Shown here piece after piece: positions 632 to 36,644 of a DNA stretch of 64,000 nt (positions are counted from its first letter, which is position 1; each line of letters opens with the position of its first letter). The stretch is from Apteryx mantelli (Eukaryota; Chordata; Aves; Apterygiformes; Apterygidae). The stretch covers positions 24,519,207 to 24,583,206 of the forward strand of contig NC_089983.1 of NCBI RefSeq assembly GCF_036417845.1. Direction: 5' to 3'. The notes beneath the pieces were generated by a model that ran no database searches, was not told where the DNA came from, and was given only the letters and a program-made list of their open reading frames with translations. The translations under genes were made by a program, and so were the position numbers.

Positions 632-798
632 CAGAACACATCCTCCAATACGTTTATGGGTAAAGGATGGGGATTAAATAGTATGAAAAGCCTTTCCTTC
701 ACAGAAGTGTCAGGTGGAACTTTTTTTTTGTGTGGTGGAAGTATGGCATCTGTTTGGGGCTGAAGTAACTGTGAGCTGGAAGTTCCTCCAAATGCCTG
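632..798 (-). CDS. RBM45: RBM45 coding exon 8 (start of RRM4)
   Basis: The exon has an AG acceptor at 800-799 and a GTAAGA donor starting at 631, and encodes residues 353-407 plus two bases of codon 408. It starts with [20 protein letters not shown], similar to the linker of human RBM45 as I remember it. It ends inside the C-terminal [12 protein letters not shown] (about residues 387-395) is the RNP2-type first strand, and [11 protein letters not shown] is the following helix. A run of nine A residues on the coding strand (721-729) encodes three lysines (376-378), a basic patch near the nuclear localisation region of the family. Phase is 0 at the acceptor and 2 at the donor. Recognition is strong. 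The C-terminus is not in the window. Confidence 0.95.
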
Positions 799-1085
799 CT
801 GAAACAAAAATAAGATGCAAACATAAATTAATTGATCAGAAAAAAAGTTCAATTTTATCTTATTTACAACTTTTGATCCAATCATAGGACATAAACAATA
901 TCTAACAGTTCTAAACTTAACTCATTCATTTACCTTGGTTGTCATTAATTTGGACAATAAATCCAAATAAGGTCAGACATCTTTAAAGAGAATAATAAAA
1001 GAAGTAACTCTGGTTGGTTTGTGCATTAAAAAAGTAGCACCTAAAGCTGATAAGAATATTAACAGTATCCATGATATTAACTTAC

Positions 1086-1179
1086 AGGAGGTGTCCTACA
1101 CTGATGAGAAATTGAATTATTCCACAACAGTGATGACATGTGTGCTGTTACCAGTTCTGTTGCCATTCTTCTAATGAGG
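1086..1179 (-). CDS. RBM45: RBM45 coding exon 7
   Basis: This 94-base exon runs from a TTGCAG acceptor (AG at 1181-1180) to a GTAAG donor at 1085. It completes codon 321 and encodes residues 322-352, LIRRMATELVTAHMSSLLWN and the following residues. In human RBM45 the same place reads LLRKMATQMVAAQLASMVWN, from memory. The segment is the helical linker between RRM3 and RRM4. Its ends join exon 6 (phase 2) and exon 8 (phase 0) without a frame break. It is too short and too intron-bound to appear as a long reading frame, so it was found by similarity and splice signals. Confidence 0.9.
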
Positions 1180-2916
1180 CTGCAAGCAGAAGTGATAATA
1201 AATGATTAAAAAAGAAAAAAAGAAAAAAAAAAGCTAAGTTACTATAATCTTAAATTCAGCAAAAGAAAGTAAGTTTCACACATCTAGAAGTATTTTTGAA
1301 AAATCTGTAAACTCAAATAGATCATGGGGAAAAAAAAAAAAAAAGAAAAAAAAACCTCTCTCCCCCTCTCTCCCGGCATTCCTGACACTCCAGACATGCC
1401 CTGAAATTATACATGGTAGCTAAAAGTCACTGAAAACACTCATATATCTCTACATATAGAGCTCTTTTCCCCAGAGCATTGAGAAAAGGCAAAAGTAACT
1501 CTACAGAACTATTTCATTTTTTTTTTTATGGAAGGTATGTAAGACAGCAAAGACAGAGAAATTTCATCTATAAAAAGCTTTAGTAGATAAAGAACAAATA
1601 GGGGAAAAATGGACTTGACCTAGAAATGCCTTCATCTAAACTGTGCATTTCTTCTAAAATCAAATTTACTATATATAGAGAGGTTTTTTTAAAAGAAAAA
1701 TAAAGCCGATATTGGGGTTTTTTTAGTCATTGTTAGTGTTTCAATAAACAGAGCACAGAGATTCAGTTCAGAAGTTGTAACATCATCATAGACACAGAAA
1801 GTTCACTTCCAGCTCTCATTTTCTGAGAACTTTCTTATCCCCCAACAGAATAAAGAAAAAGCAACAGTACTTTTGCATTGTAAGACAATGAAATAATAGA
1901 AATTATTGAAGAGTGAAAGAAAGAGCTTGACAAAAAGGCTGGTTGCAACTAATTATTGTTTTAGTTTAGGTCAGGAGTGCACTTCTGAAGTGAATCTCCC
2001 CATTTTCCTTCCCTACTGTGCTTTGGTTCACATCCCATAATAGCTTCTAATGGCATGAACTAAATTCCTTTTGGATAAAACTAAGCCAAAAGATTCACTG
2101 AAGGAGCACACCTAACACTCCAACTTCTAAGGGGCATTCAGACCACAGGAACAGACCAGAGATGGTTCAAAGTAAAACCCTTTGAAAACCAGAGCGGGGA
2201 CATCAGACCACAGCACCAACAGTTTTACTCAACGGGTGCGTTTCTTTAGGCTACCCTCCCTGCTACCATAGCCTGAGCATGCTTCTTCCATATAGCCGGG
2301 TTATGCAGTAAAGTTAACTTGCAGCTTGGATTTATCAGTTTTGTTTTGTTCAAAAGTCCTTTTTCCCCCCTCTCAATTTTTTGCTAGTGCCCTTTCAAGA
2401 ATTTGAGAGTTCTTATGTGATAAAATCTTTTAAAGTAGGTGTCTTTTCACTGTACTGGTCAAGACTAAGTTCTCCAGTTTACCCGTGTTTCCTTTGAACA
2501 TTCCAAGTTTATCTGCAGCATTCCAAACGCAACCAAGGGATCAAGCAGATAAAAGTCTGTTTTTAATACAAAAGCCTCACTAAAAAAAACATTCCAGCCT
2601 TGCTATGTATCACAGAGACATTTAAGAAGATTCTTGACAAGTTCAGGATTTTCCAATGTATCTTAAGAATACATATTTTATCTTTTTTCTTTTCCCTATG
2701 TCAAAGAAAAGTAGTAGAAGTTTCAAAAGGCTTATTTCAAACTATACAAAAACCACTACATTTCAGACAGTATTATTTACAGGTGTGAAACAGCACTGCA
2801 GTAACATCGCTGTTCCTTCTTATATTAAAAAGGAGAAAAAAAATTTCCCCCCCCCAAAGTTTTGCTCTCCAGAACACATGACTTGCAACTTTCTATCTGT
2901 ATGGATTGGTACTTAC
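1180..2916 (-). other. RBM45: RBM45 intron 6
   Basis: This is 1.7 kb of AT-rich intron between exons 6 and 7. It holds a purine tract at 1327-1352 (an A run, G, a second A run) next to a C/T-rich tract at 1355-1374, and a C run near 2848. I see no second gene, RNA gene or recognisable transposon. Confidence 0.75.
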
Positions 2917-3046
2917 TCTGAGCTATCACTCCCATCTTCTAGGAAAGTGACAGTTAATCGATTTCCAGGAGGGTACTCAAAACCATGTAATTTATACTTG
3001 GCATATATAGCTGATGCAGCAGTACTGTACTGAATCACAGCATACC
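2917..3046 (-). CDS. RBM45: RBM45 coding exon 6 (end of RRM3)
   Basis: The exon has a TTCTAG acceptor (AG at 3048-3047) and a GTAAGT donor starting at 2916, and covers residues 278-320 plus two bases of codon 321. The product begins [20 protein letters not shown], which is the RNP1-type strand and second helix of RRM3. It continues with [20 protein letters not shown], the last strand. Both correspond closely to human RBM45 ([20 protein letters not shown], from memory). Phases match exon 5 (1) and exon 7 (2). Confidence 0.95.
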
Positions 3047-3949
3047 CTAGAAGTAAAACGCATGTGTTTACAGCATGATAAATGTATATCCTAAGAACAA
3101 ACTACACTTACATAAAGCAGTAGGATCAAGTTTCACATTAGTCACAGATGCTACAACATTCCAATGGCTTTTTACCAAACAGTACATTCTTTAATAGCAA
3201 CATCAGTAACATTTGCAAAGAAAAATTCAATAGAACTAACTGGTGACAGAGCAGCTATATTTATATTAGCTTGAGAAGCAGGTACTGTCCCCTTTCCACC
3301 GGAAACCCATAAAAAGCAACAGAGGGAAAAAACATATCTTATCCAACCCAGTACTAGAAAAAAAAAAAATACATAGTACTTGAGATTCACTGTTAATGGA
3401 ATAATTTAAAAGTGAAACTATGAAGTTACATTTTGATTCTCTGAATCATTTCCACTTCAAACTTGTTAAAGCAGAGAGCTCTTTTACATTTTTTTCCAGC
3501 AGTAACAAAACAACAAAAACAAGGCCTGAAACCAAAACAATCCTTCACACACACAGAGCCAGCTATTTCAAATGAAAACTCGAAAGATCCATTTAGAGAA
3601 CATTAGAACTACATGTCTAGTAATTTTCAAAACTTTCTCTCCTTTTTATCAGCCCAAAACTTATTTGGCCATAACAAATACTTCTGATGGTTTTGATTCT
3701 GTTCTTCTTGAGATTCTATGCTCTGGATGGAAAAAAATAAAATAAAAGGTAAGTATTTAAGGCTATTTGTAAAGAGGGGTCTGAACAAAACTTAATTTTT
3801 GTGCTTATGCATCAGTGATAGCAATAACTGCTGAAACATAAAACATTCTTTCCTACAAGTGTACTGTATTTTGCAGTACTAATGAACAGAAGTACAATTA
3901 AAATGCTTCTCCTAAAAGAAAGAAAAATTGTTTCTGTACTTTTACTTAC
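3047..3949 (-). other. RBM45: RBM45 intron 5
   Basis: This is a 0.9-kb AT-rich intron with canonical GT and AG ends. It has only short A-rich tracts, such as 3358-3370. Nothing else is supported. Confidence 0.8.
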
Positions 3950-4129
3950 CATTATTAGTATGAGGATCTCGCTGAATATCACAGTACTCCAGTCCCGGAA
4001 TTAGGTCAAAGAGGGCGGACAGCTGCTCTTGGACAAAAGGAAGCCGTGATACCACTGACAGACGTTTGGAGACTGACTCCTGAATTCTGCTCTCATTTTT
4101 TTCAGAACTACAGAACTCTGGCTGCCCAC
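3950..4129 (-). CDS. RBM45: RBM45 coding exon 5 (start of RRM3)
   Basis: The exon runs from an AG acceptor (4131-4130) to a GTAAGT donor at 3949. The frame that joins exon 4 completes codon 218 and reads GQPEFCSSEKNESRIQESVS, then KRLSVVSRLPFVQEQLSALF, then DLIPGLEYCDIQRDPHTNNG. This covers the acidic/serine linker and the first strand, helix and second strand of RRM3. KRLSVVSR and IPGLEYC are almost identical to human RBM45, as I recall it. A run of seven A residues lies in the coding strand at the Glu-Lys-Asn codons. Other frames contain stops, so this frame is well determined. Confidence 0.93.
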
Positions 4130-4477
4130 CTCAAGAATCAACATAAAAATAGATAGTGTAAGTCACCACACTAGTATGCTTTCCTTTCATCCATATTTTT
4201 AATTCAACTTTTAAAAGCAATCTAAGTCAAATTTATACTACAGGTAACACGTTTATTTCATCAATGCAGGTGATGAAATAAGTCAACTACTGCAAATCAA
4301 GTCATAAAAATAAAGAAATTATATGCTTGACTAATTTTAACTCAAACACCCAATCTATTACTGAAGTGGTGATCAGAGCCTCTTTCAGCTTCCCTTCTTC
4401 ATCCAAACTGCACTCTTATTTTGTGACCATATTCAAGGCTACAAACCATTGTTAGTATAAAAAAAGACATTACTTAC
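4130..4477 (-). other. RBM45: RBM45 intron 4
   Basis: This is a short 348-base AT-rich intron with GT/AG ends. No other signal was seen in it. Confidence 0.8.
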
Positions 4478-4594
4478 CAAATGGAAACATATTTCCTCTT
4501 GGTTCCTGCCTTGTATGATTACTGTTACTATAATATTCGTGTTCAAAGGACTCAGATGACTTATTTCTAGGTTCAGCCAAAATGGCCCGGTAGC
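4478..4594 (-). CDS. RBM45: RBM45 coding exon 4 (linker after RRM2)
   Basis: The exon has a TTACAG acceptor (AG at 4596-4595) and a GTAAGT donor starting at 4477. It completes Ser179 and encodes YRAILAEPRNKSSESFEHEY, then YSNSNHTRQEPRGNMFPF, up to residue 217, plus one base of codon 218. The start is the last strand of RRM2. The rest lies in the linker that in human RBM45 includes the homo-oligomer assembly region. The spacing between YYSN and RQEP differs slightly from the human protein as I remember it, as expected for a linker. Confidence 0.93.
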
Positions 4595-6124
4595 CTGTAA
4601 GAGACAACCACACATATAGCAACACCTCAGCACACCCTAAGTATGTATGACCAGATCTGCATGCTTTGACTACAGTATTTAGAAACATGTTATTCAGAAA
4701 ACACAGTAAGTGCCGCTTTTAAGAAAATAACTAAGCTGTAACTCTTGAAGCCTCACATAATCAATGCCGCGAAAGAAACATCTTCTGTACAGGACTATTC
4801 CTATTCACAATTAAAGTAAAACAGAGCCTACTCTGCAGTATTCAGAGATGCTCTAAAGGCAACCAGCTGAACTTCCATGCCAGCTCAGTAACACAGGCCT
4901 ACTATGTTTTGCACTGATCTAGGATTTGCTTTTATGAATAATTTAGATACTATTCTCAGGCTATCCAACTCATTTCATTCTCAGACCTGAAAGGAAATAA
5001 AATGCAACTGTTAAGTAAGCTCACATACACATCCCTATCCAAGAAGGGCCACAAATACTATTTGTGTAGAAACATTTAAGATACATCAGGCATATTACTA
5101 CAAACAAAATGTTGTTTAATATTTATGATTAAATGAACATTAAATCCTAAAATTACAGTCCAACCTCCTGGTCAAAGCAGGATCAACACTGAATTCAGGA
5201 CAAGACTGCTTGGGTTTCTTCCAGTCAGGTCTTGCAAACCTTCAAGGACAGAACTTTTAAAACCTCTCTGACAACCTCTTTCAATGCTTAATTATCCTCA
5301 GGGATTTCCCCCCCCCCCCGCCTTATACCCAGTCAGAACTTCCCCTGTTCAACCTAGACCATTGACTCTCATTCTCCTGCCATGCACCTCAGCAAAGAGC
5401 CTGGTTCCATCTTCTGGGTAACCTTAAGTAGCTGAAGACTGCTACGACACTCCTGCCAAAACCCTTCTCTTCTCCAGGCTGAGCAAGCCCAGGTCCCTCA
5501 GCTTCTCCTCACAGGTCACACGCGTCAGTTCCCGACCACGTAAGTGGCCATCCACTGAACTCACTCAAGTTCATTAACATCTTTTTTTGTCCTAGGGAAT
5601 AAGTGACAAATCACCAAGTCACAAAGCATACAATCTTTTATTTTGTAAGAGATGAATTTTGACTTTAATTGAACAAATCTTCAATTAGCATTAATTTTAA
5701 ATAAATGTAATCAACACTATCTCTGTGGGTTACCAAATATATTTTTATATACTTGATATAAAATGAATGCATATATTTGATAAAACATGAATACTCCTAG
5801 CAACATATTAAAATGAGGTTTTTCCTGTGTGTGGAGTCTACACTAGAGACTGATATTATCACATGAAAGAAATCTCTGTATCCATTTCCAAACCCTTTTC
5901 ACTGTTCCTACTTGGAGAGTCCGGTCCTGCAAGAATAATCAGGTGACTAATCTCAACAAGTGTTGATAATACTATTTTTCATTTGCAATACTAGTGTAAC
6001 TTTTGGCTTAAGAGGTGTTTACATAATAATTTATCTGCAAACCAAAGTGAAGATTAAAAGGTACACTAATGACCATATACACACTTATTGTGAGAAACTT
6101 GGAAGAATTCAGTCAGATCCTTAC
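4595..6124 (-). other. RBM45: RBM45 intron 3
   Basis: This 1.5-kb intron contains the CR1 fragment described separately, a C run at about 5309-5319 inside that fragment, and AT-rich unique sequence. No other gene was seen. Confidence 0.8.
5157..5540 (-). mobile_element. CR1-type LINE fragment (3' end region)
   Basis: Read on the minus strand, the element has the familiar landmarks of chicken repeat 1 in order. Near 5480-5520 there is a segment like 'gaggagaagctgagggacct' followed by 'ggcttgctcagcctggagaa'. Near 5160-5185 there is 'gaccaggaggttggactgta', matching the GGTTGGACT landmark near the CR1 3' end. The 3' terminal octamer repeats are missing, and the body is diverged and carries a C/G run near 5310. 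It is a dead, 5'-truncated fragment inside RBM45 intron 3, antisense to the window and sense with respect to RBM45. Edges are approximate. Confidence 0.85.
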
Positions 6125-6251
6125 TTCGATCACACTCTTCAATTGCTCGGGCAGCTTGGGATGGTTTTAAATATCTCACATAGCCCAAACCTTTACTTTC
6201 TCCAGTGGTCTTGTTCTTAATAATGCTGCAATATTCAATGTCTCCGTACAT
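6125..6251 (-). CDS. RBM45: RBM45 coding exon 3 (RRM2 core)
   Basis: The exon has a TTCCAG acceptor (AG at 6253-6252) and a GTAAGG donor starting at 6124, and encodes residues 137-178 plus one base of codon 179. The product starts [20 protein letters not shown], continues [20 protein letters not shown] and ends [12 protein letters not shown] (156-164) is the RNP1 octamer of RRM2 with its aromatic RNA-contact positions present. The methionine at 137 follows the splice junction and is not a start; the human protein has Val there, from memory. The match to human RBM45 is nearly complete. Confidence 0.96.
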
Positions 6252-6377
6252 CTGGAACAATTAAAAAGCATATTAATTTACAATAAGTGAAAATGCATTA
6301 AAATTTTGTTTTAAGCTCTTCTGATAAACTAAGAAAATCCAATTGAAGATAATGATCAACAAACACTGAATTAGTAC

Positions 6378-6500
6378 CTTGAACTTATCTCTGAGATCTT
6401 CCTCTGTATAGGATTTTGGTATCATAACAAAGATTCGTGTAAGCTCTTCATCTTCAACATCTCGGTGGCTTCCAGAAGCTCTCGATTGTGCAATAAATAC
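6378..6500 (-). CDS. RBM45: RBM45 coding exon 2 (end of RRM1, start of RRM2)
   Basis: This is a 123-base, 41-codon exon with phase 0 at both ends. It has an AAG acceptor (AG at 6502-6501) and a GTACTA donor starting at 6377. It encodes [20 protein letters not shown] followed by [20 protein letters not shown] and K (residues 96-136). VFIAQSR closes RRM1, and RIFVMIP (117-123) is the RNP2 strand of RRM2. It is practically identical to the human sequence as I recall it. The intron to exon 3 is only 126 bases. Confidence 0.96.
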
Positions 6501-7253
6501 CTTAAAAAAATTATATGGACATTAATTACTGAAGAAAGAGTCTTAACCACTTTGCTTGTTGATACAAGCAAGAAAAAGGTTGTTTTTAAAAAAATCTTTA
6601 TCTTTCATATAATCTAGCTTTCCTGATATGAAAGAAGATCTCTGATCATAGATGCACCTGTGACAAAAGCTAAGTTAACATATCTGTTAAGTACGGTGCA
6701 TCCCAACTGTTTCTCAAACGGAACAGAAGCCTGCAGAAGCTTTCCGAAGGTACAATGGAGAATGGTCAGGAGCATTCAAGCCTGATTCAGTAGCACTATC
6801 AATGTCACAGGTGGCATGTGAGGTAGCAACAAATGCACTACTGTAACAGGCCAGCCCTAATATAGCAGTATTAACAAAAACAACCAACCAACCAAGCAGT
6901 TTAATATGGCCTTGCTCGAGTTCATAGCTCACTTAGCCAACGTCTGCAGGTGTAGTGCTCAGTGAGGGACTATAACTTCCCACAACTGTTAAATTTATTT
7001 CAACAGTTAAAAAAAGTTATCTCAACAGTGCACCCAGAAGACAAACAGGCAAAACAACTAAATAGATAAGTAAATAAAACACAAGTAAAAACCTTCAATG
7101 CAAGCATCTTATACAAAGGGAGCAACTGACTTCACAGAGCTCTTAAGTTATTCATCTAATGGTCACACAGGGGAGTAGGGAACACAAACCCTGATCTTCT
7201 GGCTTCTAATGATAAGTGCTTTTAGAAAATACTTTCAGTGTCTCAATTGCAAA

Positions 7254-7313
7254 AAGATATGAATGACTCTAAATGTGGAATCTTCTTTCACTGTTTAGAG
7301 TCATTCATATCTT
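7254..7313. repeat. Perfect 20-bp inverted repeat (hairpin) in RBM45 intron 1
   Basis: The left arm at 7254-7273 (aagatatgaatgactctaaa) is the exact reverse complement of the right arm at 7294-7313, separated by a 20-base loop. I checked the arms base by base and pairing stops at both ends. Such a hairpin could be the remnant of a small inverted-repeat transposon, or could fold in the RBM45 pre-mRNA. No microRNA or transposon family is recognised. Confidence 0.9.
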
Positions 7314-7549
7314 CTCATTATTTGGGGAATATAAAAACAATTCAAGAGGTTGAAAGTTGCCAGCAGGCCCCATAGATTAAAGAAAAACATGAAATTTTTT
7401 TTGACAAAACCTGTGCATAACATACAAAAAAACCCAAAACAAAACATTCTTGCAAAGACAGTTCTAGGTATCTGTGTTAATCTTGTTTAACACACCTGAA
7501 ATATACATTTTCTTAAAGTATTTTTAAAGAGACTCCCTCCATAAAAAAT

Positions 7550-7567
7550 GGGGGGGGGGGGGGGGGG
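7550..7567. repeat. Poly-G run, 18 bases
   Basis: An uninterrupted run of 18 G on the plus strand (C on the RBM45 strand) sits at the change from AT-rich intron to CpG island. It is likely length-polymorphic and could form a G-quadruplex. The exact length may be affected by sequencing. Confidence 0.9.
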
Positions 7568-7946
7568 AAGAGTTAAGGACCACGTATTCTCCAAGCCTGC
7601 GGCAGCTCTTGTAACGCGTGGGCACTTCAGCCAGGCGTGCAAACCCGGCTACCTTACCCTGCAACCAGCGACGCTCCCTACGAAGCGCACTACGAAGCTC
7701 ACAAACCCAGCGGCCCGAAACGGCCCCGGGTTTGACTCTAAACTAGAGTCACAGCATCGGCAACGAGCGCAAGTGCGGATAAAGCGTCGGAGGAAGAAGC
7801 GGCTCCCCGGCCGTCACTACGAGCAGACCCGCCCCCGCGGCCGAGCAGAGGCCGGCGAGGCCGGGCCCGGGCCCGCAAGGGGCCGCGCAGCTCTGGGGCC
7901 AGCGCGAGCTGCGGGCCGGCCAGCTCGGGCCGCAGCAGCCGAGGCC

Positions 7947-8206
7947 CGCCGCGGCTGCCGGGCGCCGCCGCCATGCTGGGGAGGGCGCCGCGGCTGCCGG
8001 GCGCCGCCGCCATGCTGGGGAGGGCGCCGCGGCTGCCGGGCGCCGCCGCCATGCTGGGGAGGGCGCCGCGGCTGCCGGGCGCCGCCGCCATGCTGGGGAG
8101 GGCGCCGCGGCTGCCGGGCGCCGCCGCCATGCTGGAGAGGGCGCCGCGGCTGCCGGGCGCCGCCGCCATGCTGGGGAGGGCGCCGCGGCTGCCGGGCGCC
8201 GCCGCC
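7947..8206. repeat. 39-bp GC-rich minisatellite, about 6.7 copies
   Basis: Six full units start at 7947, 7986, 8025, 8064, 8103 and 8142, followed by a 26-base partial unit from 8181. The unit begins cgccgcggctgccgggcgcc and ends gccgccatgctggggaggg on the plus strand. Copies are identical except for a G-to-A change at 8136 in copy 5, which points to recent expansion or ongoing homogenisation. The array ends six bases before the exon 1 donor hexamer of RBM45. On the RBM45 strand every full unit contains AGCATGGCGGCGG, which resembles the YY1 core. Being a multiple of three, the array stays open in several frames, but it is intronic. Confidence 0.97.
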
Positions 8207-8217
8207 GCGGCCCGTAC

Positions 8218-8502
8218 CTTAATGGGCTTGGTGTCGGGAGCCAGGCTGCGGCCATGCATCATCTCCATGGCCCGGCAGGCCTGCGAGCTGCGGGCGAACT
8301 TGATGAAGGCGATGCCGCGGGACTCGTTGGTGCGCTTGTCCCGCAAGAGCCAGATGTTCTGGATGTCGCCGAAGGGGGCGAAGCGGTCCCGCAGCAGCGC
8401 CTCCCCGGTGTCCTTGCCCAGCACCACGAACACGCGGCTGTTGGGCGGCTCGTCCAGGCACTCGGCCGACAGGCGGAACCCACCGCCGCCGCCCTCCTCC
8501 AT
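8218..8502 (-). CDS. RBM45: RBM45 coding exon 1 (start codon, RRM1)
   Basis: RBM45 (also called DRB1) is an RNA-binding protein of developing nervous tissue. It binds GAC-type RNA motifs, self-associates and shuttles to the nucleus. This exon encodes residues 1-95, from [20 protein letters not shown] to DTKPIK. RRM1 covers about residues 23-101 and RGIAFIKFA (62-70) is its RNP1. The ATG at 8502 has a strong context (GCC before, G after). The C-terminal side matches human RBM45 closely, while the glycine-rich N-terminus differs. An in-frame upstream ATG at 8604 with no stop between could add 34 residues ([11 protein letters not shown]...), but its context is weaker. Exons 1-8 in the window give 407 codons plus two bases of a protein that is about 475 residues in human. 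Confidence 0.96.
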
Positions 8503-9020: not shown

Positions 9021-9750
9021 AGGATGGTGTGGCCTCAGCATCTCCCGCACACACTCGTGCTACAATACTTACAGTTTTTTAAAGGATCTCTTTAAATTAG
9101 AGAGCTCACTACACTATGTGGTGACCCACTCCCTTCAAAGCAACAGCAGTGTCGTAATGAGACAGCTTTTCCCCAACGAAACCGTTTTCAAGGCCTCTAC
9201 TGTGATAGGCACCAGTGGGGCTAAACAGAGTTCTTGTGAACTCTGGGCATATAGAGGCCTAGGGAGCTGGATGTATTTCATGAGAACCAACTACAAAAAA
9301 TATCCAGGAAAAATAATTTATCTGTGGGAAAAAGTATTGGCAGTGGTAGTGATTTGGGAAGCGGAATTTGTGAATGTGTGCAGAGTTAAGTGGCAATTCA
9401 TTTCAGAGTGTAAAATAGGTTAATGAGTATTTTTAGAGGAACACGTTTTGGATATAGTGTTTGTTTTTGGTACCACATAAAGGAATACTCAGGAAAATGA
9501 AAGTTCCTTCTTTACAGAACAATGGGAAGCCTGTTGAGAAAAGTGAGTTTAAGGTACAACTCATTGGGAACAGCTTGTTAGGGTTAAAAGGCAATGTCTT
9601 TTATGAGCACTGAACAGTGCACTCTTTTTTTTCCTAACTCCTGATACCATATCTTCTTGGCACTGCAAGATTGGGATGCAAAGCAATTTAGTAGGAAAAA
9701 CAAGCATTTCGGCATAGGGAAGCGGCCTGCAGAGAGAAGGCAGCGCTCCC
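9021..9750. other. Intergenic spacer between RBM45 and CYCT promoters
   Basis: This is about 0.7 kb of ordinary AT-richer sequence between two CpG islands, with no coding similarity or repeat recognised. Because RBM45 and CYCT are transcribed away from each other, it may hold shared regulatory DNA, but no specific site is supported. Confidence 0.6.
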
Positions 9751-10085
9751 GGGGGCTCCATGCCGCCGCCGCCGCCCGCCCCTCGCGCGGGAACTGCCGT
9801 TAGAACCGTTAGCACTGCACAGCCCACCCGCCACCTCCTGCTCCCGCTAGAAAAAGGGCGCGGCTCTTAATCCCACCCCGCGGGCCTCCGACGCACCAAT
9901 CAGAAGAGAAGGTGCTGAGTTAGCCTGTCCGTGATTGGGCGCCACTCTGACGACACCTGTCCTGACTCCGGTCGGCTGCGAAGTGTCTGCTGAGGCTAGG
10001 GCCCGCCGGATTTGGGGCACGTGGTTGCGGGGCAGCGCAGGGGGGGCCCTCCGCCTTGGCAGGGGCCAGCCGCTGCCCGGGGGTC
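9750..10085 (+). promoter_or_regulatory. CYCT: CYCT CpG-rich promoter and probable non-coding exon 1
   Basis: This isolated GC-rich island lies 0.8-1.1 kb before the cytochrome c start codon. It contains a CCAAT box at 9896-9900, an inverted CCAAT (ATTGG) at 9934-9938, a CRE half-site TGACG at 9948-9952 and a CACGTG E-box at 10018-10023. Vertebrate cytochrome c genes usually have a non-coding first exon and a CRE/NRF-controlled promoter, and the acceptor six bases before the ATG shows that an upstream exon exists. The donor of that exon could not be decided. Confidence 0.65.
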
Positions 10086-10894
10086 ATAGACAATAACTGC
10101 TAATCGGTAGATGTTAAGGATATTCATCAAATATTTTTAAGGTTGCGTTAATATGTTTTGTGTATTAGAAGACATTTAAGTTTTGCACCCCTGCGTGGCT
10201 TTGTTCTCTGAGGTCAGGACTAGATTATTATAAAGGACTCCTTGAAGTTGTGTTTCTAGCTAGCAGTAATCCTTATGAATCTTCATGTCTGCACTCTGGT
10301 AGTAGTTTCCTTGCTGCTTCCAGAAGTTGTTTTCACAAGTATGGGAGAATGTACTGGAGCAGAGGATTGGAGTAAGGGATATTCTGGATATGTGACAGGG
10401 TGCAGTTCTAGAGCCATTCTAAGTAGTACTGTGACCCACAGGGAAAGCCTGAGATGCTGCTGTATTTCAGATAGGTCTTCTAGACAAAGATACATGGATA
10501 TTTTCTCTTACCATCAGAGTAGCTCTAGAAAAGCAATAAAATGACTTAAAGCTACCTTAACCTCTGAAGTTATGATGCAAATTCTGTAACTCTGCACCTC
10601 TTGGAGATGCAGTAAAAAAACTCATGGTGTTTTTTCCTAATTCCATCTTGGATAACTTTGTAAAGAATTAATTCATGACCAGCAATAACCAGATGAATTT
10701 AAGAGGTTGTGCAGCTTAACAGAGTCTAGGTTTATAATTAAGTCTCAATCAGATTTTCATTTGTTTGAGAAACTAAATTTTTATTGCTGTGCAAGACAAA
10801 TATTTTCTAAAACTGTTGAAGGAGATGATGTGACCAGCAACAGTGATCTTTTCTGTATCATTGTGTAAATTTCTCTTTTTATTTTTTGTCATAG
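10086..10894 (+). other. CYCT: Probable CYCT intron 1
   Basis: This AT-rich stretch lies between the promoter island and the ATG-containing exon. It ends in a pyrimidine-rich tract and an ATAG acceptor (AG at 10893-10894). Short open frames near 10275-10544 show no recognisable protein. Confidence 0.6.
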
Positions 10895-10900
10895 ATCAAA

Positions 10901-11069
10901 ATGGGTGATGTTGAAAAAGGCAAGAAGATCTTTATTCAGAAATGTTGTCAGTGCCACACAGTTGAAAAAGGTGGAAAACACAAGACAGGCCCAAATCTTT
11001 GGGGTTTATTTGGCCGCAAAACAGGACAAGCTGCAGGATTTTCTTACTCAGATTCTAACAAGAACAAAG
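10901..11069 (+). CDS. CYCT: Cytochrome c, testis-type, coding exon 1
   Basis: Cytochrome c carries electrons from complex III to complex IV in the mitochondrial intermembrane space and triggers the apoptosome when released. This exon encodes [20 protein letters not shown] and then [36 protein letters not shown], plus one base of Gly56. The haem motif CXXCH is present (Cys14, Cys17, His18, mature numbering), but position 15 is an extra Cys where other cytochromes have Ser or Ala. Trp33 is shared with mouse testis cytochrome c, whereas the chicken and human somatic protein has His33 (from memory). The donor is AAAG|GTAAAA at 11070, interrupting the Gly56 codon as in other vertebrate cytochrome c genes. 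Intact introns rule out a processed pseudogene. The symbol is inferred from sequence and from its place between RBM45 and PDE11A. Confidence 0.95.
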
Positions 11070-12507
11070 GTAAAACTAACAGGTGACATGAATGAGGTGC
11101 AGTGCTGGAGGGAAAGTATATGGAAAGAAGCCTTTTTCTTTAGAGATACAATAGAAAACCATATTTACAAGAATTACTCTTGGAAGCATCTATATTGCAA
11201 TACTGCAGATGAATCTGAGCTATAGTTTCAGAAGCGAAATTACTCAGTCCCTAAATTAAAAAGAAATTTTAGCAATATCTAGCATGTCAGGTCAGAATGT
11301 ATGCATCTTTTACAGAATTTTGTAGTATCAATGCGCAGATTTTCATTTCTGTTTGAGTGCTTTTAGATTTTGTTTGCTGCTCACTGCCCTCTACTGTTAT
11401 TGTGCTGTGCTGCAGTTTTACTCAAGAACACCTGACAAGGGTGACAAAGCTGACAAAATACTGTCATTGATTAAAACATTATGACTTGTTTGTGTACTTT
11501 AATACAGAAAATCCTGAAAAGCAATGAGACATCTAAAAATAATTCTGTATGTTCATTTGGGGGTTTTCCTTATTTGGGACCTTGGTTTGTTTATTTATAA
11601 TTTTTGAATCAATCTATTAATTACAAATACAGTCCTTTTTTTTTCAGTTACTGAGGTGTTTCAGAATTCACTGACTCTTTGATTTTGCCATGATTTCTGG
11701 GAGATTTTTTGTAACATTTGCTTTTACTGGAAATTCTCTCATACAAAAAGCCATACATTTCAACATATATTGACTGTTTTTTCTCTTTAAATATTTAATG
11801 AACAAATAGCACAGATGATAGTACAAGTATTTAAAAGAGAGCCAACAATGTGATATCTAAATCCACTTTAGACAATGGGAGCAGTCCACTCTTGAGCACA
11901 GAGGATGAACTTGGGCTTGTTATTAGATACTTCAGTAGTCTTCAGTACTATTGTGGTAGGCTTCTGTTGATAGAGACAAGATTTAGCAGGGCTAGAAGGA
12001 AACAATAATGCTTTTTTTTATCTTCTGTCAAGAAAATCCAGAAGTGGCTATTGATAACCCTTTTTCTAAGGCCCTTCAGTTAAGCACAGCCTTGATGAAC
12101 TTAATATGTAGATTCTCATTTCAACATTTGTATGAAATTAAAGTTCGATCTTCTGGATACAGGGATTACAAAGATACTTACATAATTTAAAGGTAATATA
12201 TAGTTAAGTTTTATCTGAAATGCTACAAAGAATTGCAACTCTCCATGATGCAAAAAGTATTATGTTATTTATATGATCAAGCTATTAAAGTGACTCAAAG
12301 GCAATGTATGAATTGTGCATTAAATGGATACTGAAATATGAATTAAATGTTGAAAATTTTATGTTATGTATCATTCACTCTCACTTTCCTCTTGGATTCT
12401 AGGCACATTATGTTCAGGAGCACCACACTTTAGATTTGAGACCCTCAGTATTTTGATATATATAAGGTTTGGGGCAAGTCTTGCATTTTATTGTATTTGT
12501 TTTTCAG
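11070..12507 (+). other. CYCT: CYCT coding intron
   Basis: This is a 1.44-kb AT-rich intron with a GTAAAA donor and a TTTTTCAG acceptor. Nothing else was recognised inside it. Confidence 0.9.
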
Positions 12508-12656
12508 GTGTTACTTGGAGTGAAAGTACACTGATGGAGTATTTGGAAAACCCCAAGAAATACATTCCTGGAACAAAAATGATGTTTGCTGGCATTAAAA
12601 AGCAGAATGAGAGAGCTGATCTTATTGCATACTTGAAAAAAGCAACCTCCTCCTGA
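12508..12656 (+). CDS. CYCT: Cytochrome c, testis-type, coding exon 2 (C-terminus)
   Basis: The exon starts after a TTTTTCAG acceptor (AG at 12506-12507), completes Gly56 and reads [20 protein letters not shown], then [20 protein letters not shown] and YLKKATSS, then TGA. The haem ligand Met80 (in GTKMMFAG), Trp59, Tyr67, Tyr74 and the lysine patch for oxidase docking are all present. The full protein is 105 codons including Met, the normal vertebrate length. The tail KKATSS and the WSE motif resemble mouse testis cytochrome c (WSEETLMEYL, KQATSS), while chicken somatic cytochrome c ends DATSK (from memory). There is no frameshift or stop, so the gene looks functional. Confidence 0.95.
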
Positions 12657-12768: not shown

Positions 12769-12774
12769 AATAAA
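12769..12774 (+). terminator. CYCT: Polyadenylation signal AATAAA for CYCT
   Basis: An AATAAA hexamer lies 113 bases after the stop codon, followed by a T-rich stretch. This would give a short 3' UTR, usual for cytochrome c messages, although longer forms cannot be excluded. Confidence 0.75.
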
Positions 12775-15974: not shown

Positions 15975-16769
15975 ATGGCGGCCGACGCCGACCTCGACGT
16001 GGCGGCGGTGGAAAGTTTCCTAGAGAGGCACCCGGAGCTGGTGGAGAAGTGGCTGCAGAGGAAAAACCCGCTGCCGAAAGCGGCGGGCAGCTCCGGGAGC
16101 GCGGCCAGCCCCGCGCCCGGCCCGTCGGAGGAGCGGCGCGGCGGCGGCGGCTGGGCGGGCGCGGGCGGCTCCGGCCCCGGCGGCGGGGGGCTGCAGCGGC
16201 GAGCCTCGCAGAAGGAGCTGCGGAAGAGCTTCGCCCGCTCCAAGGCCATCCCCGTCAACCGCACCTACGACGAGCATGTGCACGCGCGGGCGCAGGAGCC
16301 GCTGAGCAGCGCGCGGCGGCGGGCGCTGCTGCGCAAGGCCAGCTCCTTGCCCCCCACCACGGCGCACATCCTCAGCGCGCTGCTCGAGTCCCGCGTCAGC
16401 CTGCCCCAGTACCCCCCCACCGCCCTGGACTACAAGCGCTACCTCAAGGAGCACAACGAGCGCCAGTTCTTCCTGGAGCTGGTCAAGGACATCTCCAACG
16501 ACCTGGACCTCACCAGCCTCAGCTACAAGATCCTCATCTTCGTCTGCCTCATGGTGGACGCCGACCGGGGGTCCCTCTTCCTGGTGGAGGGCGCCGCCGC
16601 CGGCAAGAAGAGCCTCGTCTCCAAGTTCTTCGACGTGCACGCCGGCACCCCGCTGCTGCCCTGCGGCTCCACCGAGAACAGCGACGAGGTGCAGGTGCCC
16701 TGGGGCAAGGGCATCATCGGATACGTGGCCGAGCACGGCGAGACGGTCAACATCCCCGACGCCTACCAG
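15975..16769 (+). CDS. PDE11A: PDE11A coding exon 1 (N-terminus and most of GAF-A, long isoform)
   Basis: PDE11A is a dual-specificity phosphodiesterase that hydrolyses cAMP and cGMP; its N-terminal GAF domains regulate activity and dimerisation. This exon encodes 265 residues of the PDE11A4-like form. The ATG at 15975 sits in an excellent context (GCACCATGG) and starts MAADADLDVAAVESFLERHP. Next come a Gly/Ala/Pro-rich low-complexity linker (about 36-73), the conserved RRASQKELRKSFARSKAI block (Ser78 corresponds to a known kinase-type RRAS site), RKASSLPPTTAHILSALLES (Ser123) and GAF-A from about residue 165. The exon ends PDAYQ|GTAGGA at phase 0, where exon 2 continues with DRRF. Oddities: the N-terminus is shorter than in human, and Gly199 replaces a Cys in VDADRCSLF. 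Catalytic exons are not in the window. Confidence 0.97.
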
Positions 16770-36485: not shown

Positions 36486-36644
36486 GATCGTCGCTTTAAC
36501 GATGAGATTGACAAACTGACGGGTTACAAGACGAAGTCGCTGTTGTGCATGCCCATAAGAAACAGCGATGGAGAGATTATTGGTGTTGCCCAAGCAATAA
36601 ATAAGACTCCTGGAGGTGCCCCTTTTTCTGATGATGATGAGAAA
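36486..36644 (+). CDS. PDE11A: PDE11A coding exon 2 (end of GAF-A)
   Basis: This 53-codon exon with phase 0 at both ends runs from an AAG acceptor (AG at 36484-36485) to a GTAAGA donor at 36645. It encodes [40 protein letters not shown] and [13 protein letters not shown]. It carries the NKFDE signature of cyclic-nucleotide GAF domains: NK (residues 39-40 of the exon), F47 and the closing DE. The match to human PDE11A is nearly exact, with changes only in the loop (TPGG for IPEG, from memory). Confidence 0.97.

Follow-up and report, generated by a model that had tools for sequence, protein, structure and literature searches.

The 64,000-nt window (the whole stretch of Apteryx mantelli DNA analysed here) contains, on the plus strand, a cytochrome c gene with a complete coding sequence, which is very probably the avian ortholog of mammalian CYCT, i.e. 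the HoxD-side ohnolog of the somatic gene CYCS, functional and kept by purifying selection. This reading is based on the complete coding sequence, the presence of CYCS at C2 of the same genome, the mirrored gene blocks around the two loci, the silent and replacement differences between them, four alignment columns, a match of 36/54 residues in a second frame of the first exon, and the published case of chicken. In the accessible part of the report by Pierron et al. 2011 (PMC3196546) chicken is described as still having both cytochrome c isoforms, so the main claim is confirmed here but has been known since 2011.

The coding sequence consists of exon A (10901-11069, 169 nt, 56 codons plus base 1 of codon 57) and exon B (12508-12656, 149 nt, stop codon TGA), which are separated by a phase-1 intron (11070-12507) with a GT donor and an AG acceptor and are joined in frame to give 105 codons followed by TGA, in agreement with the preliminary description of an intact, full-length gene with canonical splice sites. 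The intron splits codon 57 (Gly57, counting Met as 1) at the same site as in the somatic gene CYCS of this bird, where the counterpart intron is 194 nt long. The product matches the Pfam family Cytochrom_C with an E-value of 7.6e-15. In the usual numbering, which counts the initiator Met as 0, the translation includes the CCQCH haem motif, His18, Met80, Trp59, Tyr67, Lys72 and Lys73, residues with well-known roles in cytochromes c. Judging from the translation, CYCT encodes a complete cytochrome c with the haem motif and the axial ligands intact, and its product would most likely carry electrons from complex III to complex IV in the mitochondria and trigger apoptosis, as ordinary cytochromes c do.

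The haem motif, located at 10943-10957 of the window, has an extra Cys15 beside the haem-binding Cys14, whereas this position is occupied by Ser in CYCS of the same genome and by Ala in mouse testis cytochrome c. This residue is unusual, and the haem attachment of the predicted protein could be altered by it, which was counted against the preferred reading. The tRNA scan returned no tRNA genes, and the bacterial promoter and terminator scan returned no sites downstream of CYCT.

CYCT is located between RBM45 on the minus strand and PDE11A on the plus strand. Exons of both neighbors were located with human proteins as queries, and five stretches, namely CYCT and four neighboring ones, were run against Pfam, with RRM or GAF domains found in three of the four neighbors. 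The RBM45 exons (634-8502, tblastn) lie upstream of CYCT; the first one matches RRM_1 (1e-13), and another one, coding for 42 aa, has no Pfam match. PDE11A is represented by a PDE11A4-type first coding exon (15975-16769), the start codon of which is presumed to be the first Met in the open frame and which ends in phase 0 with the donor CAG/GTAGG, and by an exon beginning with DRRFNDE (36486-36644) with a phase-0 acceptor. The GAF match of the latter has an E-value of 1.3e-8, while that of the former (7.3e-4) is below the curated cut-off. The tblastn and domain matches thus bear out the placement of the gene between RBM45 and PDE11A in the preliminary description. RBM45 is the other neighbor of the testis cytochrome c gene in mammals as well. 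According to the part of PMC3196546 available, this gene is found at 2qC3 in mouse and as a relic at 2q31 in human, and Pde11a3, one of the Pde11a splice forms, takes its first exon.

The protein itself was compared with mouse testis cytochrome c, for which we used PDB entry 2aiu ("Cytochrome c, testis-specific"), presumably mouse Cyct, and with five somatic rows (CYCS of the same genome, rodent, horse, human and chicken). Four alignment columns, W33, V57, S60 and S104 (Met = 0), set CYCT and the mouse testis protein apart from all five, as had been claimed for the testis-type residues, with the reservation that W33 is also present in tuna cytochrome c, which lacks V57 and S60 and has no residue at column 104. 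W33 may therefore be ancestral, and Trp33 was ruled out as a testis marker. Whole-protein identity does not single out the mouse testis form: it is 90/105 to this form, equal to that to CYCS of the same genome and below the 92/105 shared with the rodent somatic protein. A protein tree of nine rows gave a CYCT/CYCS split of 59/4 with no starred branch; in 84% of 200 bootstrap trees only one change was needed, a result matched by 72-88 of 500 label shuffles. The tree was discarded as a proof of orthology because the informative sites are too few, and both its lack of a starred branch and the higher identity to the rodent somatic protein were counted against the CYCT reading. Since neither whole-protein identity nor the tree prefers the testis form, the case for orthology is made by synteny and by the DNA-level test given below. 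No further CYCT orthologs were confirmed in IMG/VR contigs, and among 119 pattern matches in GTDB contigs two encode a relative (69% and 43% identity); both come from records whose titles name bacterial genomes, and they were not used.

The equal identity to the two proteins would also fit a gene that had arisen recently in birds, as a duplicate or retrocopy of CYCS inserted near PDE11A, and had converged on a few testis-type residues. The genomic surroundings argue against this. When the 1.5-Gb assembly was searched in all six frames, the CYCT protein gave four exon matches at two loci (7/7 candidates scored), CYCT on C6 and a second gene at C2:132963651-132964156, the product of which is of somatic type and, in keeping with a bird genome, identical to chicken CYCS at 103 of 105 positions, so the separate CYCS locus for which the preliminary description had proposed a search does exist. 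This CYCS (L005, 4651-4819) has Asn33, while chicken CYCS has His33. A DNA query of 109 bases from exon A matched a single place in the genome and likewise missed CYCS.

The gene order around CYCT is mirrored around CYCS. On C6 there are gasdermin (24.374 Mb), oxysterol-binding protein (24.397-24.404 Mb), CYCT (24.530 Mb) and a homeodomain cluster (25.347-25.428 Mb), and on C2, in reverse, a homeodomain cluster (131.874-131.981 Mb), CYCS (132.964 Mb), oxysterol-binding protein (133.085-133.097 Mb) and gasdermin (133.119-133.129 Mb). Genome-wide, there were five matches to gasdermin at three loci, 49 to oxysterol-binding protein, which we grouped into 12 loci, and at least 150 to the homeodomain (150 of 334 candidates scored). 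Judging from family, place and the gene list in the accessible part of PMC3196546, the pairs are probably OSBPL6/OSBPL3, PJVK/GSDME and HOXD/HOXA. CYCT, adjoining PDE11A, would then belong to the HoxD-side paralogon, the cluster on C6 being presumably HoxD. The same source, as far as available, describes two Hox-linked cytochrome c regions for human as well as for chicken, gives the duplication an age of over 300 million years and suggests the early Hox quadruplication as its origin; a Xenopus cyct is named in the accessible part of PMC7414715. It is quite reasonable to suggest that duplication of the Hox paralogon early in vertebrates produced CYCT on the HoxD side together with CYCS. The proposal that the somatic/testis duplication predates the mammal-bird split is thus upheld by the mirrored blocks, and it is also found in print (PMC3196546, in part).

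Nor does the divergence of the two copies resemble that of a recent duplicate. By the Nei-Gojobori method CYCT and CYCS differ with a pS of 0.756, which is at the random limit, and a pN of 0.094 (exon A: 0.757 and 0.067; exon B: 0.754 and 0.124), and the intron is kept at the same codon. The proteins have remained identical at 90 of 105 positions in spite of the silent saturation, and saturated silent sites with few replacement changes indicate long purifying selection since the duplication. The suggestion that the testis copy is still under selection holds in this sense, as an average over the whole time since the duplication, calculated from the two copies of one genome.

Exon A has a second open frame, the +1 frame, which runs on the plus strand for 54 codons from an ATG at 10908 to the donor at 11069, ends in phase 0 and may represent a PDE11A3-type alternative first coding exon. 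The phases agree, as the PDE11A exon at 36486 starts in phase 0 and the PDE11A4-type exon, with its end at 16769, is in phase 0 there too, so the PDE11A4-type exon and, if it is spliced in this way, exon A would both be joined to the exon at 36486-36644. The +1 peptide is identical at 36 of 54 residues to the N-terminus of human PDE11A3 in the version used here. Synonymous randomisations of the CYCT exon reached a maximum of 34 identities to PDE11A3, with means of 18.1 and 19.6 (20,000 for each of two codon weightings), and 5,000 draws conditioned on an open +1 frame with an ATG gave a mean of 18.7 and a maximum of 30. The CYCS exon of the same genome gave 23 identities to human PDE11A3 in this frame, a value reached by 631 and 545 of 20,000 randomised CYCS exons, so the paralog, too, is slightly above expectation. 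The excess for CYCT indicates that this DNA and the human locus have a common ancestry, provided that the PDE11A3 peptide used is right. The match supports CYCT orthology at the DNA level, and by itself it is no demonstration of selection on the +1 frame. As an identity so far above synonymous randomisation joins the mirrored order, the retained intron and the silent saturation, a recent origin from CYCS is hardly credible.

An open +1 frame was rejected as evidence in itself, as it occurs in 56% and 48% of 20,000 synonymous draws under the two codon weightings; an open frame with a Met among the first six residues occurs in 28% and 30%. The +1-frame identity is 27/54 in each of three further pairs, namely human CYCS and CYCS of this genome, which served as a control pair with no known dual coding, CYCT and CYCS of this genome, and human CYCS and CYCT of this genome. 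The difference between 36 and 27 of 54 has a one-sided Fisher value of 0.059, and the chance of at least 36 identities under simulated divergence is calibration-dependent, from 0.0017 to 0.67 over nine settings. Codons identical between CYCT and CYCS number 26/48 in exon A and 17/38 in exon B, with no clear excess in exon A. In contrast to CYCT, the somatic gene CYCS of this bird is interrupted by a stop in the +1 frame and lacks an ATG where CYCT has one. The CYCT start codon has A at -3 and G at +4, a strong start context, which would hinder access to the second ATG 7 bases downstream. That exon A is dual-coding in birds, with selection in both frames for a testis-type cytochrome c and the N-terminus of a PDE11A3-like phosphodiesterase, is put forward tentatively, as the less likely case. 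If it is true, a single exon has served two unrelated proteins from a time before mammals and birds separated, and selection on the second frame in birds as well would make this an unusually old dual-coding exon tying a respiratory protein to a cyclic-nucleotide phosphodiesterase. The accessible parts of PMC3196546 and PMC13095499 contain no statement on the PDE11A3 frame in birds.

The open second frame also fits a history in which the cytochrome c frame evolves neutrally or is in decay, exon A being preserved solely through a PDE11A3-type form read in the other frame, all the more so as the stop in primate CYCT is reported to be silent in the Pde11a3 frame (PMC3196546, accessible part). Exon B, however, lies outside the PDE11A3 form and is fully open, with the pN of 0.124 against the pS of 0.754, which points to selection for the cytochrome c protein as such, and the haem and ligand residues are intact too. 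Such decay is thus very unlikely, and CYCT is best regarded as a functional gene for cytochrome c.

A GC-rich CpG island at 9700-10100 (GC 0.673, CpG o/e 0.79), with CCAAT at 9896 and ATTGG at 9934, is likely to hold the CYCT promoter and a 5' UTR exon, in contrast to the region at 10100-10900 (GC 0.358, CpG o/e 0.12). A polypyrimidine-AG acceptor ending at 10894, right before the ATG (TTTTTTGTCATAG, then ATCAAA at 10895-10900 on the plus strand as putative 5' UTR bases, then ATG), makes a 5' UTR intron likely, and together with the separate island it suggests an untranslated first exon of CYCT. A candidate poly-A signal, AATAAA, was found at 12769-12774 on the plus strand; the hexamer occurs 135 times in the window compared to 95.7 expected from dinucleotide shuffles (135 was reached in 0/100), so a single AATAAA is weak evidence for a poly-A site. 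The likely promoter island and the candidate poly-A signal, both previously attributed to the gene, lie outside 10901-12656.

The ancient ohnolog became testis-specific in mammals, as is known for the family, and the bird gene would have its own promoter island and probably expression in the germ line. Alternatively, CYCT may be a functional true ortholog that is not restricted to the testis in birds, the testis specialisation having arisen in mammals. This differs from the preferred reading in tissue only, so the confidence placed in the two overlaps, and it is a possibility to be taken seriously, if not the favored one. The CpG island would fit broad expression, and Pierron et al., in the part available, give testis expression for mammals and none for chicken (PMC3196546); against it are the orthology to mouse Cyct and the report in the same source that the Pde11a3 form on the same exon is testis-specific.

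The results amount to a sequence-level confirmation from one more bird species that two cytochrome c ohnologs were present at the start of the amniotes and that the primate loss is derived; what most deserves further attention is the possibility that exon A is dual-coding in birds. Among the known systems, CYCS on C2 of the same genome has the same coding-exon structure as CYCT, yet it lies presumably on the HoxA side and has N33, I57, G60 and K104. Mouse Cyct has 105 residues and all four testis-type residues like the bird protein, from which it differs at 15 positions, the bird having C15, S51, S62, M81, Q88 and N89 among them. Its first exon is used by Pde11a, and the chicken loci of Pierron et al. 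2011 are, as in this bird, two in two Hox-linked regions (PMC3196546, in part). The primate relic occupies the same locus as bird CYCT, and its exon shared with PDE11A3 is the counterpart of exon A, but its cytochrome c frame carries a shared stop according to the accessible part of that report (PMC3196546), whereas the frame of the bird gene has none.
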